48,712 nucleotides of DNA, taken from NCBI GenBank assembly GCA_913030915.1, contig CAJWEW010000009.1:1-48712 (forward strand), written 5' to 3'. Of the stretch, positions 2,529 through 46,011 are shown piece after piece (the first letter of the stretch is position 1; each line of letters begins with the position of its first letter). The notes below the pieces were generated by a model that was given only the letters and a program-made list of their open reading frames with translations, was not told the DNA's origin and did not search any database. The position numbers were made by a program, and so were the translations under genes. The stretch is from an uncultured Rhodobiaceae bacterium. Its GTDB lineage: Bacteria > Pseudomonadota > Alphaproteobacteria > Rhizobiales > TMED25.

Positions 2529-2906
2529 ATGGCTATGGAAAAGACAATGACTGATATTGTTGATATGGCGCATAATGTTGGATTAATGGGAGCAGTAGAT
2601 CCATTAATGTATAAGTTTGCAATATTTATTCTTGCTATTTTTATTGGTTACTATGTAATATGGAGTGTTACTCCCGCCTTACATACACCACTTATGTCGG
2701 TAACTAATGCTATCTCATCTGTTATTATTGTAGGTGCACTTTTGTCTCTTGGGGCAGAATTTATTGAAGGCCAAACAAGCCTTACAAATTTCTATATTGC
2801 AAAGGGTTTTGGTTTTGTTGCGCTTATACTTGCATCTATTAATATTTTTGGTGGCTTTTTTGTTACATATCGAATGCTATCAATGTATAAAAAGAAGGTA
2901 AAGTAA
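2529..2906 (+). CDS. pntAB: NAD(P) transhydrogenase subunit alpha part 2
   Basis: Small multi-TM protein between pntAA and pntB (TPALHTPLMSVTNAISSVIIVGAL). Confidence 0.95.
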   Translation: MAMEKTMTDIVDMAHNVGLMGAVDPLMYKFAIFILAIFIGYYVIWSVTPALHTPLMSVTNAISSVIIVGALLSLGAEFIEGQTSLTNFYIAKGFGFVALILASINIFGGFFVTYRMLSMYKKKVK

Positions 2907-2907
2907 C

Positions 2908-4302
2908 GTGTCCGCTAATCTAATTTCATTCTTATATTTAATTTCGGGGATATTTTTCATTCTAGCTCTGAGAGGATTATCAAATCCTGAGTCTGCAAGA
3001 ATGGGGAATTATTTTGGTATAACTGGTATGGTCATAGCGGCCTTTACAACACTATTCATATCACCACCAGCTGGTATGGATTTATTATTGCTATTAGGGG
3101 GCTTATTAATTGGGGGCACAATTGGCTTAGTTATTGCAAAAAATATAGCCATGACGGCTATGCCACAACTTGTTGCAGCATTCCATTCACTTGTTGGCCT
3201 GGCCGCTGTGCTGGTTGCATCCGCAGCATTATATGTCCCTTCATCAATGGGCATAGGCACAGTTGGCGATATACATCTAGCAAGCTTAATTGAGATGGGC
3301 CTTGGTGTAATAATTGGAGCAATAACTTTTTCAGGTTCTGTAATTGCATTTCTTAAATTACAAGGCTTGATGTCAGGGTCTCCAATAGTATTTCCAAAGC
3401 AGCATCTGCTAAATCTTATTATAGCCATTGGTATTGTGTCACTTCTTGTTGTGTTTACCATGACTGAGTCTCATTCAATCTATTGGACAATCGTTTTATT
3501 ATCATTCCTGATTGGGTTTTTGATCATTATACCGATCGGAGGTGCCGATATGCCTGTTGTAGTATCAATGCTCAACTCTTATTCAGGTTGGGCTGCAGCA
3601 GGTATTGGTTTCACACTCGGAAACATAGCCCTTATCATTACAGGCGCACTAGTTGGGTCCTCAGGTGCAATATTATCTTACATCATGTGCAAGGGAATGA
3701 ATAGATCATTTTTCAATGTTATACTCGGGGGCTTTGGTGGCGAAACTTCATCAGAAAGCACTGGTAGTACAGAAAATAGACCAGTAAAGCAAGGATCTGC
3801 TGATGATGCCGCTTTTATAATGAAAAATGCAGGCTCTGTAATAATTGTTCCTGGTTACGGAATGGCAGTGGCGCAGGCACAGCATGCTCTTCGTGAGATG
3901 GTTGATATATTAAAAGGATCAGGCGTAAACGTCTCATATGCTATTCACCCGGTAGCAGGTAGAATGCCGGGGCACATGAATGTCTTATTAGCTGAGGCTC
4001 AAGTTCCGTATGATGAAGTATTCGAATTAGAAGATATAAATTCTCAGTTCAGTCAAACTGATGTTACTTTCGTAATTGGTGCAAACGACGTCACAAACCC
4101 AGCGGCAAAAACTGATTCAAGTAGTCCTATTTATGGGATGCCAATATTAGATGTTGAAAGATCAGGTACAATTTTATTCCTAAAAAGGTCCCTCGCCTCA
4201 GGCTACGCTGGTGTTGAAAATGAATTGTTTTTTAGAGATAACACAATGATGTTATTCGGTGATGCGAAGAAAATGGTGGAGGATATTGTTAAGGCCTTCT
4301 AG
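2908..4302 (+). CDS. pntB: NAD(P) transhydrogenase subunit beta (GTG start)
   Basis: GGADMPVVVSMLNSYSGWAAAGIGF and GYGMAVAQAQHALREM, PntB signatures. Confidence 0.97.
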   Translation: MSANLISFLYLISGIFFILALRGLSNPESARMGNYFGITGMVIAAFTTLFISPPAGMDLLLLLGGLLIGGTIGLVIAKNIAMTAMPQLVAAFHSLVGLAAVLVASAALYVPSSMGIGTVGDIHLASLIEMGLGVIIGAITFSGSVIAFLKLQGLMSGSPIVFPKQHLLNLIIAIGIVSLLVVFTMTESHSIYWTIVLLSFLIGFLIIIPIGGADMPVVVSMLNSYSGWAAAGIGFTLGNIALIITGALVGSSGAILSYIMCKGMNRSFFNVILGGFGGETSSESTGSTENRPVKQGSADDAAFIMKNAGSVIIVPGYGMAVAQAQHALREMVDILKGSGVNVSYAIHPVAGRMPGHMNVLLAEAQVPYDEVFELEDINSQFSQTDVTFVIGANDVTNPAAKTDSSSPIYGMPILDVERSGTILFLKRSLASGYAGVENELFFRDNTMMLFGDAKKMVEDIVKAF

Positions 4303-9851: not shown

Positions 9852-11336
9852 CTAACTCTCTGTAAGTTTTATTTCAATACGTCTATTTTTCTTGTAGGAA
9901 ATCTCGTCATCTCCTGTTTCCAGTGGCATAAACTCACCCCTGCCTGTCGCAGCGAGCCTATTGGGTGGAATTCCCGTTTTTATCAGGAAGTCTACAACTG
10001 AAATCGCCCTTGCGGCTGATAATTCCCAATTTGACTCATATCTAGAATTTTTGATTGGGACTCTGTCCGTGTGCCCGTCGACCCTAAGTATCCAATTTAT
10101 TTCTTGTGGTATATCATTAATAAGCTCTTGGATCGCAACCGATAATTTCGCGAGCTGTCTCTGTCCTTCAATTCCAATATTTGCTTCCCCACTATCGAAA
10201 AGTACTTCAGACTGAAATACGAATCTGTCACCTATGATCTTAATATCATCCCTGTTACCGATTATTTCTTTGAGCTTACCAAAGAATTCAGATCTATATT
10301 CAGATAATTCTTTTACTCTTTGTGCCAGTGCAACATTTAATCTTTTACCTAAGTCTGCAATTCGTGCTTGCTGATCAATATCCCTTTTTTCAGATGCATC
10401 AAGAAGATCTTGCAATGCTTGTATCTGCTTTTTTAGCTCAGAAATTTGAATATTTAGAATTTGTACATCATTACCCGATGCCTTTGCTTTTTGACTTGTA
10501 GATAATAAAATCGATTTTAATTTTTCTAGTTTTTCGCTATTTTCAACTTCTTTTTTTCTCAGATCTATAATTATTTGTTCACTATCTTGGATCGCTTTTT
10601 CCTGGTCAATTGAGGCTATATCCATATTTAATTTATCTGTTTTTAGTTCAGTCAAAAGATTATTTTGAGTTTCGTTTTTTTCCCTCAAATCAATAATCAT
10701 CTTTTCTTTATTTTTCAGATCCAAACCTAGATTACTTATATTAGACTGCAGATCAGTTATTTGAGCCTCAAAATTAAGAATCTTATCTGAATTATTTTCG
10801 AGTTGTAGGTCTTTTATTTTAAGTAATGATGCAAGCTGATTTCTTTCAGATACTAATTTAATTATTTGTTGACCTCTGAGTGCAGACTCACCTCTTTTTT
10901 CTTCAAAAAGTACAATTTTCTTATCTAACTCATCCTGTAGGATAATTAGTCTGTTATTATAATCATCATTAAGAGCAGTAATTTCGTCTTGTAAAATTAT
11001 TATATCTTCATTCGCTTTTTCAAGCTGGATATTCAAACCTTCGTTATCTAAGCTGAGATTTGCAATATCTTCTTCTAGAACCTGAATTCGATTCATGAAT
11101 TCATCATTTTGAGTTTGTTCAAGGGACAATAGAAGTGACAGCTCATTAAGTTGATCCTGTAGATCGGATAAGGCATCGTCCTTTGATGATATTTCCGTTG
11201 ATAGGAAAAATTGAGATAAAATAAATACCGTCAGTAAAAATATTATAACCAATAAAATAGTTGCCATTGCATCGACAAATCCAGGCCAATAATTCGCTGT
11301 ATTGCTGTTATTTGGTCGTCTACTATTTCTGGGCAT
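9852..11336 (-). CDS. OmpA/MotB-like peptidoglycan-binding protein with long coiled coil
   Basis: N-terminal TM (WPGFVDAMATILLVIIFLLTVFILSQFF), about 300 residues of coiled-coil-like sequence, C-terminal OmpA-like domain (VDGHTDRVPI..SNWELSAARAISVVDFLI..RNRRIEIKL type). Confidence 0.88.
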   Translation of the reverse strand: MPRNSRRPNNSNTANYWPGFVDAMATILLVIIFLLTVFILSQFFLSTEISSKDDALSDLQDQLNELSLLLSLEQTQNDEFMNRIQVLEEDIANLSLDNEGLNIQLEKANEDIIILQDEITALNDDYNNRLIILQDELDKKIVLFEEKRGESALRGQQIIKLVSERNQLASLLKIKDLQLENNSDKILNFEAQITDLQSNISNLGLDLKNKEKMIIDLREKNETQNNLLTELKTDKLNMDIASIDQEKAIQDSEQIIIDLRKKEVENSEKLEKLKSILLSTSQKAKASGNDVQILNIQISELKKQIQALQDLLDASEKRDIDQQARIADLGKRLNVALAQRVKELSEYRSEFFGKLKEIIGNRDDIKIIGDRFVFQSEVLFDSGEANIGIEGQRQLAKLSVAIQELINDIPQEINWILRVDGHTDRVPIKNSRYESNWELSAARAISVVDFLIKTGIPPNRLAATGRGEFMPLETGDDEISYKKNRRIEIKLTES

Positions 11337-11372
11337 AGGTAATACTGGTTTTTTTTCTGGTTAAAAAGATTG

Positions 11373-12320
11373 CTATTTCTTTTTAACTTCGTCAATTATT
11401 TTTTTTTGTAACTTATTCTGTTCACTTAATAATTTACTTATATCTTTGTTTTGCTGTTCAATTGCATTTAATACAGTTTTGAGTCCGCTATTTTTATCTG
11501 TGCTTTCACTATGTAACACCTTTTCTAATTCAATTAGGATTGCGTTCATATCTTTTAAATTTCTATTAAGATAGAAGTTCATTTTACTGTCAGATCTTTC
11601 ATCATTAATTTCAGTTACAGTAGATAGCCACTCCTCGAGTTCATTATAAAACCTATTTTGGGCTTGATTATACAAAAGATCAAAGAAGCCAAGAATTAGA
11701 GATCCAGAAAGACCAAATAATGAAGATGAAAAAGCAACTCCCATTCCAGACAGTGGTTTTTCAAGACCTAGTTTCAATTCTTCAAACATTACCGAAGATT
11801 CGCCTGTTCCAACTTTAAGTGTGCCAATTGTTTGCCCAATCGAGTCAACAGTAAGTAGGAGACCCCAAAAAGTTCCAAGCAAACCCAGAAAGATCAATAA
11901 ACCAATCATATATCTTGAGTATTCTCGGGACTCATCAAGTCTAAAAGAGATTGAGTCCAGTATAGATCTCATTGATGTTGCAGAGAGAGTAATCTCGTAT
12001 TTATGGTCCAGCATCATGGTCGCCATTGGAGCGAGTAAAGACGGCGGTGAGCCAATATCGGCGTGATGGTCACCATTTTGAAAATTATTAACCCATCTTA
12101 CTTCACGAAACAACTTTATTGTCAGCCACAAAATATATATTATCCCAAAGCCAAGAACTGAGCTTATAACTGTATTAATGATAGGATTAGTTTGGAATGC
12201 TTTTGTTAGATCCTCTTGTATTAATAATATGAAAAATGAGATTAAGAATACGAAGATTAGCATCCTAAATAAGTAAATTCTTGGATGCGTGAAGTTTCTA
12301 GAAACAGGAATATCAGTCAT
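11373..12320 (-). CDS. MotA/TolQ/ExbB-type proton channel family protein
   Basis: TM segments with GLLGTFWGLLLTV and LSGMGVAFSSSLFGLSGSLILGF typical of MotA/TolQ/ExbB; paired with the OmpA/MotB-like protein. Confidence 0.83.
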   Translation of the reverse strand: MTDIPVSRNFTHPRIYLFRMLIFVFLISFFILLIQEDLTKAFQTNPIINTVISSVLGFGIIYILWLTIKLFREVRWVNNFQNGDHHADIGSPPSLLAPMATMMLDHKYEITLSATSMRSILDSISFRLDESREYSRYMIGLLIFLGLLGTFWGLLLTVDSIGQTIGTLKVGTGESSVMFEELKLGLEKPLSGMGVAFSSSLFGLSGSLILGFFDLLYNQAQNRFYNELEEWLSTVTEINDERSDSKMNFYLNRNLKDMNAILIELEKVLHSESTDKNSGLKTVLNAIEQQNKDISKLLSEQNKLQKKIIDEVKKK

Positions 12321-12350: not shown

Positions 12351-13136
12351 TTACCCTTTGATTAAATTGTCGTATATTTTTTGGTTGGATACAATAAAAT
12401 AATTTCCCCCCATCTTTCCTTTTAAGCTAAGCGCATTAATATCTCCTCCAGACTCCTCTAGAATTAGGAGTGCTGCAATCACCGAGCGCCTGTTGTCATT
12501 ATGACCAATAAAGCAGTTTAAGGCCCCATTGGATACCATGCATACCTCAAGCGATATTGATCCCATTTGACGTATTGAATTGACTGAGTTCAAATATTTC
12601 AAAAAAAAATCATCTATATCATTATTAAAAAGACCCAGACGTTCATCGATTGCAATCATTGCATTATCAGGGCTTATCTCATTAGATACACTCATTCGTA
12701 TATTGTTGTACCTTGCAGAAATTCCCCTTTCACCAATAAAAACTTCATCCGAGATTGGATTGTATACGATGCTATTTTGTACAATACTGTCCTTTATGTG
12801 GGCGATGGTTATACAAAATAATGGGATTCCTCGCTTGAAATTCATTTCTCCCTCAAGTGCATTAATTATGAAGGAGTTTTTTGGAAAAGCGGATATCTCA
12901 AAATCATTTTTTGAGATATCAGGTATTGTGATCAATTCATAACCATTTTTTGAATATTTTGACTCAAGTTCCTCTCTTATGAAAGACTCTACCTTGCTTT
13001 TACTTTTTTGAACAAATTCGTTTATCGACTTTTTAGAATTTTGCAGATTTTGGAGCTCACCAAAATCACGTCGATATATTTTTGCAACATTTCTGACAAT
13101 TGAATAGAGAACATTTGTATTTGGTAGATAGCTCAT
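12351..13136 (-). CDS. SuhB/inositol monophosphatase-like protein with degenerate catalytic motifs
   Basis: Family fold retained (IVRNVAKIYRRDFGELQNLQNSK.., SIRQMGSISLEVCMVSNGALNCFIG, ILEESGGDINAL), but metal-ligand motifs are replaced (INALEGEMNF; RRSVIAALLILEESGG). Confidence 0.75.
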   Translation of the reverse strand: MSYLPNTNVLYSIVRNVAKIYRRDFGELQNLQNSKKSINEFVQKSKSKVESFIREELESKYSKNGYELITIPDISKNDFEISAFPKNSFIINALEGEMNFKRGIPLFCITIAHIKDSIVQNSIVYNPISDEVFIGERGISARYNNIRMSVSNEISPDNAMIAIDERLGLFNNDIDDFFLKYLNSVNSIRQMGSISLEVCMVSNGALNCFIGHNDNRRSVIAALLILEESGGDINALSLKGKMGGNYFIVSNQKIYDNLIKG

Positions 13137-13140
13137 AAAA

Positions 13141-13716
13141 TTAGTCAGCCCTTTTTATGTAGGTCATTTCATTTGTATCAACTATGATTATGTCATCATT
13201 ATTAATGAAAGGCGGCACCGTAACTCGAATATTATTTTCCAAAATAGCTGGCTTTGATGATGAGGCTGCCGTCTGACCTTTGATTGAGGGCTCTGTATCT
13301 ACTACTTTTAGTGAGACTGTTTCGGGCAAGACAACGCTTACTGGACTTCCCTCGTACAGCTCTATCTCTACAATCATACCTTCTTTTAGGAATGATTTTT
13401 TTTCATCTAAAATGCTTTGATTTACTGATATTTGCTCGTATGTATTACTATTCATAAATATTAGCTCACTATCATCTGGATATAAATATTGATAGCTTTC
13501 GGACTCTATTCTTACTCTCTCAACTATTTCATCTGAGCGGAATCTCTCATTTAATTTTGTATTATCAATTATGGATTTCATCTCAACTTGATTAAATGCA
13601 CCGCCTTTACCCGGTTTAACAGCTTGTGTTTTAGTGACAACAAATAACGATCCCTTATGTTCAAGTACGTTACCTATCTTAATTTGATTCCCATTTATTT
13701 TCATATCATCCTCCAT
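13141..13716 (-). CDS. efp: Elongation factor P
   Basis: NQIKIGNVLEHKGSLFVVTKTQAVKPGKGGAFNQVEMKSI; OB domains. ORF start could be MKINGNQ, a few codons in. Confidence 0.95.
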   Translation of the reverse strand: MEDDMKINGNQIKIGNVLEHKGSLFVVTKTQAVKPGKGGAFNQVEMKSIIDNTKLNERFRSDEIVERVRIESESYQYLYPDDSELIFMNSNTYEQISVNQSILDEKKSFLKEGMIVEIELYEGSPVSVVLPETVSLKVVDTEPSIKGQTAASSSKPAILENNIRVTVPPFINNDDIIIVDTNEMTYIKRAD

Positions 13717-13763: not shown

Positions 13764-14723
13764 TTATTTCATAAACTTTGGCATACGTAAATAAGTAATG
13801 CTATAATCATTCATACGTGGTCTAAAATTTTCAAATTTTTCAACTGCAGCGCTTCTATCAAGAGAAGATAAAGTACTCATATTCATGTCCAATTCAACAT
13901 CTGATACGCCAAGTTGCTTTGCTAATAAATAATATTCATATGCCTTAGTGTCATTTTTTATTGTTCCAATACCATAATAATACATGGTCGCTAACTGTTG
14001 TAATGCTGGTGGATATGCCTTTTGTGCTGATCTTTCAAGCCATACAATAGCAATTTTTTCATCTTTCTTAATTCCCATCTCATTTAAAATCATCATTGCA
14101 TAATCATACTCGGCCTCTGTATAACCCTGGTCTGCAAATTCAAACATCATTAGCGCTGCATTTTTTTTATCAATTTTTGTTCCAATACCGTTAAGCTTAT
14201 ATTCAATGAGAGAATACTTTGCTAATTCAATTTCTTCACTCGCCTCATTCATATACTCGTAAGCCATTGACTCATTAAGGGGTACATTTATTCCATACCT
14301 ATGATAAATTGAGAGATAATATTTCGCATAAGATGATAAAAATTTATCATTACTATTTTTCAATTCGTAAAAATAATTATATGATCTAGAGTAGTCAATT
14401 TTATTATGAAAAAGCACTTCTGCTATTTCAAATTTTGAGTTTTGATCACCTGCTTTCATAGACTCTTCATACCACTCAGTCGCAGACTCAATGTCACCAT
14501 TGCTAATAAATTTTTTTGCTATCCAATAAGCCCACTCTTGATTACCGTTAGTATGGTATGACTCTATTGCTTCATCAATATCATTGTTAATCAATAAGGT
14601 TTTGAATTTATCATTTGTAATATTAGCAGAAACTCTACTGAAGCATAGAAGAAGGAAGCCAAGTATCAGCAAGATCTTTACTGAAGAGAATAAATTGTTT
14701 ACTTTTCTAAATTTTCTGACCAT
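13764..14723 (-). CDS. Sel1-like repeat protein with signal peptide
   Basis: Sel1 units (AIVWLERSAQKAYPPALQQLATMYYYGIGTIKNDTKAYEYYLLAKQLG). Confidence 0.8.
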   Translation of the reverse strand: MVRKFRKVNNLFSSVKILLILGFLLLCFSRVSANITNDKFKTLLINNDIDEAIESYHTNGNQEWAYWIAKKFISNGDIESATEWYEESMKAGDQNSKFEIAEVLFHNKIDYSRSYNYFYELKNSNDKFLSSYAKYYLSIYHRYGINVPLNESMAYEYMNEASEEIELAKYSLIEYKLNGIGTKIDKKNAALMMFEFADQGYTEAEYDYAMMILNEMGIKKDEKIAIVWLERSAQKAYPPALQQLATMYYYGIGTIKNDTKAYEYYLLAKQLGVSDVELDMNMSTLSSLDRSAAVEKFENFRPRMNDYSITYLRMPKFMK

Positions 14724-45192: not shown

Positions 45193-46011
45193 TTATTTCA
45201 ATAAGTATTCTTTTTGACTTAAATTTGCTAAAGAAACAAATCCATCACTATTTAAGAAATTAGGCTTGTTATATTCAAATTCGTTAAAATTTATATCAAA
45301 GAATGCCCCACCAGCACCTTCTAAAATTACCTGACCTGCCGCCGTATCCCATTCATAACATGGCTCAAGCCTAATATATAGGTCCGCTAAACCTTCTGCC
45401 AACAAACCAAATTTAAGAGCTGAACCACAGCGCCTAATTTGATTAATTCCGTATTGGTCCATAACACCCTGCATTTCTCTGGATGGAATTGATCTACTGT
45501 GTAGCATGACTTTGGTTTTTGTATGTTGCCTTGTTCTTATTTCAATGGCATCATCTTTGTTTGATATTTTGTAGGATTTTAAATTATTGTAAGCAAAATA
45601 TATATCATTACGTGCTGGTGCGTTTATGATACCAAGAACAGGTTTATTTTTCTCAACTAATGCAATATTAATTGTAAATTCACCATTTTTTTTTATGAAC
45701 TCACGTGTTCCATCGATTGGATCAATCAAAAAAAAACAATCTGAATTGATTTTACTTTCCTCATCAAAGTATTTTTCTTCAGAAATTACATCTACACCGG
45801 GTTCAATTTTTGAAATTTCGTGCAAAATTATCTCTTCAGAAATCCTATCTGCCAAAGTTACAGGGGATTTATCCTTTTTATAGTTTATTTCAAAATTAGT
45901 CTCATAAATCTTCATAATTTCCAGTGCGGATTTTTGTGATATATTTATGAGCTCGATGGCCAGTTTTTTATGTGAGCTTTGATTATTATTTTTCATAACG
46001 TTGGGTAACAT
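45193..46011 (-). CDS. cysQ: 3'(2'),5'-bisphosphate nucleotidase (CysQ); start may be 45996
   Basis: Intact IMPase-superfamily motifs ISEEKYFDE, FLIDPIDGTREFI, EWDTAAGQVILEGAGG. Confidence 0.92.
   Translation of the reverse strand: MLPNVMKNNNQSSHKKLAIELINISQKSALEIMKIYETNFEINYKKDKSPVTLADRISEEIILHEISKIEPGVDVISEEKYFDEESKINSDCFFLIDPIDGTREFIKKNGEFTINIALVEKNKPVLGIINAPARNDIYFAYNNLKSYKISNKDDAIEIRTRQHTKTKVMLHSRSIPSREMQGVMDQYGINQIRRCGSALKFGLLAEGLADLYIRLEPCYEWDTAAGQVILEGAGGAFFDINFNEFEYNKPNFLNSDGFVSLANLSQKEYLLK

Follow-up and report, generated by a model that had tools for sequence, protein, structure and literature searches.

Repeated loss of catalytic residues from efp-linked SuhB in Alphaproteobacteria and a probable SuhB pseudoenzyme kept under selection in the OCS116 lineage

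The efp-suhB locus and its altered catalytic motifs

The stretch of DNA analysed, 48,712 nucleotides at its full length (hereafter, the window), carries an uninterrupted open reading frame of 261 aa that lies 4 nt from efp, as described in the initial annotation; the frame is on the minus strand, downstream of efp. A profile search assigned the product to the inositol monophosphatase (IMPase) family (PF00459, 68.4 bits against a gathering cut-off of 27), and the closest solved structure by sequence is SuhB from Bartonella (3luz). The window, its relatives and order-level outgroups with intact SuhB all show the gene order fba-sel1-efp-suhB-motA-ompA, with occasional gaps at contig ends in the outgroups. 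This order and the best match to SuhB mark the window gene as the alphaproteobacterial SuhB ortholog by position. The MotA/TolQ/ExbB-like and OmpA-domain genes (window positions 9852-12320) trail efp-suhB as a conserved pair throughout the order. The features are collected in Table 1.

Table 1. Genes and motif sites of the window (residue numbers of the motif sites are those of the window protein)
Feature	Position	Strand	Basis or remark
OmpA-domain protein, kept downstream neighbour	9852..11336	-	PF00691; synteny
MotA/TolQ/ExbB-like protein, kept downstream neighbour	11373..12320	-	PF01618; synteny
SuhB without catalytic residues, 261 aa, efp-linked	12351..13136	-	ortholog of alphaproteobacterial SuhB
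WDxAAG site, RRSVIAA, residues 216-222	12471..12491	-	W211-D212 replaced by R217-S218
DPxDGT site, FIINALEGEMNF, residues 89-100	12837..12872	-	alignment
Expected E67-E68 region (EES/EEG), YELITIPDISK, residues 66-76	12909..12941	-	motif absent
TxADxxxE site, FVQKSKSK, residues 41-48	12993..13016	-	D44 replaced by K46
efp, elongation factor P, directly upstream of suhB	13141..13716	-	TIGR00038, 228 bits against cut-off 185.8; synteny
Sel1-repeat protein, kept upstream neighbour	13764..14723	-	PF08238; synteny
cysQ paralog, all catalytic motifs intact	45193..46011	-	TIGR01331, 233 bits against equivalog cut-off 228.8

The conserved catalytic residues were judged at D44, E67/E68, D84, D87, T89 and D212 (E. 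coli numbering). At the DPxDGT site, both aspartates and the threonine are gone, with D84, D87 and T89 corresponding to N92, E95 and E97 of the window protein. The stretch xWDxAAG is replaced by RRSVIAALL, so that the last aspartate ligand is now serine; among orthologs this position varies between S, A, L, V, E and T. The EE(S/G) motif is absent from its expected region. An aspartate of the window copy, D73, does lie near the E67 column, but orthologs carry Asn or Gly there and it is thus not a conserved ligand. These three losses had been read from the window sequence in the initial annotation, and they hold in alignments to SuhB and IMPase proteins and to efp-linked orthologs alike. The TxADxxxE site, which reads QKSKSKVE, is lost as well. 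Over the five key positions (E67, D84, D87, T89 and D212), E. coli SuhB retains every catalytic residue (EDDTD), whereas the window protein has none of them (DNEES).

The cysQ paralog shows ISEE, DPIDGT and WDTAAG and serves well as the internal control for which it had been proposed. The window genome (G000; 1.31 Mb, 93% complete) contains three PF00459 genes, namely cysQ, the dead suhB and a HisN-like gene on contig 24, which scores 268.8 bits with TIGR02067 against a cut-off of 275 and has the RTGGDCFFY motif typical of HisN. The CysQ and HisN proteins have PF00459 in common with the window protein but belong to different subfamilies, and they retain the EE pair, DPIDGT and the last aspartate. 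A second, intact SuhB, for which the initial annotation had suggested searching, was not found in this 93% complete genome, and two more complete genomes of the same genus (G003, 98%; G008, 95%) likewise contain exactly three PF00459 genes. Replacement by a paralog was considered and rejected, as it is the copy beside efp that is dead and the remaining PF00459 genes of the window genome are CysQ-like and HisN-like.

Selection and predicted fold in the OCS116 cluster

The loss is common to all 12 genomes of the genus that were examined and to two genomes of a sister genus, all from the marine OCS116 cluster of the Rhizobiales. As identical losses occur in 11 further genomes of the same genus and two of the same family, a sequencing accident can be discounted. 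E67 and D212 are lost in all 14 members, D84 has become Asn and T89 Glu throughout, and at D87 ten members carry Glu and four retain Asp; each member keeps at most one of the five key residues. Five residues of the window protein (K44, K46, N92, E97 and R102) are invariant in this 14-member family. Elsewhere in the order, the catalytic residues are intact at 16 outgroup loci (L018-L033); these efp-linked Rhizobiales genes share locus and gene order with the window. One genome, G009, contains two near-identical efp-suhB loci on separate contigs (C21 and C22; L038 and L039), and this 7% contaminated metagenome-assembled genome is probably a strain mixture.

Ratios of dN/dS for suhB, calculated by the Nei-Gojobori method for 15 ortholog pairs in the clade, range from 0.07 to 0.22; dS is high or saturated in some pairs, and the close pairs (dS 0.1-0.5) agree. 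The values are comparable to those of fba (0.08-0.16) and sel1 and higher than those of efp and motA. A single pair from another lineage with dead SuhB gave 0.065. With ratios well below 1 and the frame open in each of the 14 genomes, the earlier view that the gene is maintained rather than decaying is borne out.

An AlphaFold2 model of the window protein calculated with 102 aligned orthologs has a pLDDT of 88.6 and a pTM of 0.89, and was used in place of a poor model obtained with 21 sequences (pLDDT 63). The alpha-beta-alpha-beta-alpha IMPase fold is present in this confident prediction. The best Foldseek matches are SuhB structures with TM scores of about 0.8, among them chains from 6tqn, the rrn antitermination complex. 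The predicted fold is that of E. coli SuhB (6ib7, 6ib8 and 6tqn; Foldseek probability 1.00 to 6tqn_T), and SuhB from Bartonella henselae (3luz, 3lv0) is the best match in both sequence and fold, although the window protein has only about 25-30% identity to the intact SuhB of Bartonella and other Rhizobiales. The window SuhB is accordingly a probable pseudoenzyme under selection, in which the catalytic residues have been lost and the gene, its predicted fold and purifying selection have been kept.

Recurrence across the class and the positions that survive

Intact SuhB was used as a query against 289 genomes of Alphaproteobacteria, and the sequences from about 80 of these were read, with weak scorers favoured. 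At least 29 genomes besides the OCS116 cluster, of 0.6-2.6 Mb and spanning about 22 GTDB-style families, have a SuhB short of most catalytic residues; these counts are lower bounds because the sequences of most strong scorers were left unread. Ten surveyed paralogs (L098, L099, L103, L105-L109, L139 and L140) were left out of the counts. The replacements at the DPLDGTTNF site differ by lineage and include NPLEGAENF, SAMDGLTNF, NIIGGEDNF, LSLSGAANF and APLVSQRNA. Decay is uneven among the 43 dead sequences, two of which (L121 and L125) retain three of the five key residues. The initial annotation was thus correct that the loss is real in this lineage, but it understated the extent of the loss, which recurs across the class.

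A tree (INDEPENDENCE) was calculated from concatenated ribosomal proteins and SecY (72 rows, 2935 columns) under LG+G4. It requires 11 changes of state, 9 of them forced by supported branches; a site-heterogeneous tree with the worst rows removed requires 12, again with 9 forced, and in these trees the deep placement of fast-evolving rows is uncertain. The full catalytic set is unlikely to be regained, so most of the changes should be losses. Dead and intact copies stand side by side in several parts of the tree: G161 is dead next to intact G267, the dead OCS116 cluster is next to intact G109, G317 is dead and G089 and G219 intact within one family, dead G107 and G231 neighbour G098 and G149, and dead G188 lies amid G215, G268 and G162. 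A single ancestral loss, with all dead-SuhB genomes constrained together, was rejected (p-AU 4e-6). SuhB has therefore been turned into a putative pseudoenzyme many times within the class, with multiple origins. A link between loss and small genomes was not shown, with four of nine independent pairs in agreement, none in disagreement and five tied (p = 0.125).

An efp-linked SuhB with DSLNGQ and without an EE or WD motif occurs in Rhizobiaceae bacterium NORP284 (L050, positions 2666-3298), on a contig with ambiguous bases; it is possibly another separate loss, and was left out of the counts. In five genomes (G151, G208, G307, G131 and G092) no SuhB passed the survey threshold. One of these, G208, belongs to the same genus as G077, which has a dead SuhB, and outright loss of the gene would thus occur too.

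The decay was compared between two sets of positions, with one vote for each dead lineage. The catalytic set comprises eight positions with an invariance of at least 97% among intact SuhB proteins (D44, E67, E68, D84, D87, T89, W211 and D212), and the comparison set 26 other positions that are equally invariant. The grouping follows known catalytic roles of IMPase positions (PMC5516325) and was made before the result was seen, with W211 and E68 being our own second-shell choices. Mean retention in the dead lineages is 14% for the catalytic positions versus 80% for the others (Mann-Whitney p = 4e-5). Confinement of the decay to the active site matches the prediction of selection on a non-catalytic function. 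The retained positions (E. coli numbering) include D22, F23, E25, F39, L55, G88, N91, G132, R139, V142, R183, G198, E222 and G224-G225. Surfaces that matter are predicted by these survivors to be the RDFxE helix, the RxRV segment, R183, G198 and E222-G-G.

The proposed role of SuhB without catalysis

SuhB has two known activities, as an inositol monophosphatase and as a Nus factor, and in E. coli it binds NusA and the nut-like RNA of rRNA transcripts as a member of the rRNA transcription complex. Which activity is under selection has so far been debated mainly from E. coli mutants. The initial annotation noted that catalysis is reported to be dispensable in E. coli, and published data concur, in that effects of a suhB mutant were alleviated without a need for IMPase activity (PMC6614801, PMC2834668).

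We consider it probable that the SuhB ortholog of the OCS116 lineage was made a pseudoenzyme and that selection keeps a non-catalytic role, most likely as a transcription scaffold. The metal-binding acidic residues and the threonine of DPxDGT are gone from the protein, whose predicted fold is still that of IMPase/SuhB. Without these residues, hydrolysis of phosphate esters by the IMPase mechanism is not expected, and judging from its sequence the window protein should be inactive as an IMPase phosphatase. It may instead be kept as a scaffold with NusA and RNA polymerase during the synthesis and maturation of rRNA. Catalysis at the efp-linked suhB would have been lost repeatedly in other Alphaproteobacteria, which suggests that in these lineages catalysis is what SuhB can do without. 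The earlier proposal that only a non-enzymatic role was kept is well supported by the losses, dN/dS and fold as regards a non-catalytic role; the identification of that role with rRNA antitermination is inferred, and is supported only moderately.

Two readings that dispense with a purely non-catalytic role appear much less plausible. Enzymatic activity could persist, based on a rebuilt metal site or a different chemistry that uses K44, K46, N92 and E97; the invariance of these residues and of R102 among the 14 members does imply that the former pocket is not drifting freely. However, E67 and D212 have no conserved acidic substitute across orthologs, two catalytic aspartate positions are now Asn, Glu or Lys, and the unrelated replacements in other lineages are unlike a shared new active site, so that we regard this as very unlikely. 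More improbable still is that the gene is decaying, with selection relaxed or absent, and was caught before its disruption. The catalytic residues have indeed disappeared, and efp and motA evolve more slowly than this protein, but decay is contradicted by the low dN/dS; the open frame in every member, the 80% retention at invariant positions outside the catalytic set and the confident fold also speak against it.

The preferred reading, a non-catalytic scaffold in transcription, can be compared with the Nus factors of these genomes. The window genome has both the NusA C-terminal repeat and NusB (TIGR01954 and TIGR01951 over cut-off). NusB was undetected by its family model in five dead-SuhB genomes (G128, G153, G247, G263 and G341; loci L089, L092, L088, L091 and L100), three of which are at least 99% complete; from the profile searches it is probably lost or extremely diverged in all five. 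The contigs of the window genome carry no 16S gene. A boxA-like AGCTCTTTGAAATTGTAAAAAGAAA lies about 168 nt before 16S in the related OCS116 genome G010, with two mismatches to the consensus searched, and a boxA-like TGCTGTTTGACATTGTAAAAAGAAA occurs at a similar place in the distant G161. The consensus at up to one mismatch was absent from the one OCS116 16S leader searched, and no boxA-like element was seen in two rRNA leaders of G263. The NusA repeat and NusB in the window genome, together with the boxA-like elements in relatives, fit with a Nus-factor role. The main E. coli residues that contact NusA-AR2, K251 and L254, are replaced by D and I in the window protein, and these positions also vary in intact SuhB of the class. 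Transfer of the E. coli contacts to alphaproteobacteria, which bears on the interface check proposed in the initial annotation, gave no signal for dead or intact SuhB. In its simplest form the Nus-factor role is opposed by the variation at these contacts, by the five dead-SuhB genomes in which NusB was undetected and by the G263 leaders.

A pseudoenzyme may also have a non-catalytic role other than NusB- and boxA-dependent rRNA antitermination, such as 16S rRNA maturation, general binding of RNA polymerase or NusA, or a translation-linked task suggested by efp as a constant neighbour. The persistence of dead SuhB where NusB is undetected and no boxA-like element was seen speaks for such a role, as do the emphasis on rRNA maturation over antitermination in E. 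coli work (PMC4807359) and the position of efp directly beside 22 of the 29 dead loci outside the OCS116 cluster. Adjacency is nevertheless weak evidence of common function, given that efp also lies beside intact SuhB; NusB may have diverged beyond detection, and most of the genomes in question keep the NusA C-terminal repeats. We therefore hold this role to be rather unlikely. Likewise less likely than not is a class-wide view in which the catalytic site is disposable, with at least nine independent losses, and some dead SuhB proteins fulfil a core role without NusB or boxA; the primary ancestral function would then be that of a scaffold of the transcription machinery, in place of phosphatase activity or an antitermination that strictly requires NusB.

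No earlier report of a SuhB pseudoenzyme was found in the open-access literature, where the catalytically dead SuhB proteins described are laboratory point mutants, whereas the window protein is a natural ortholog. Lineages that discard the enzyme and keep the protein are natural separation-of-function experiments, and their dead SuhB proteins are ready-made orthologs for probing the role of SuhB in rRNA synthesis. For these genes the annotation 'inositol monophosphatase' is probably functionally wrong.

In two distant alphaproteobacterial rRNA leaders (L262 and L264), a boxA-like core is followed by a shared ATTGTAAAAAGAAA, some 170-190 nt ahead of 16S.
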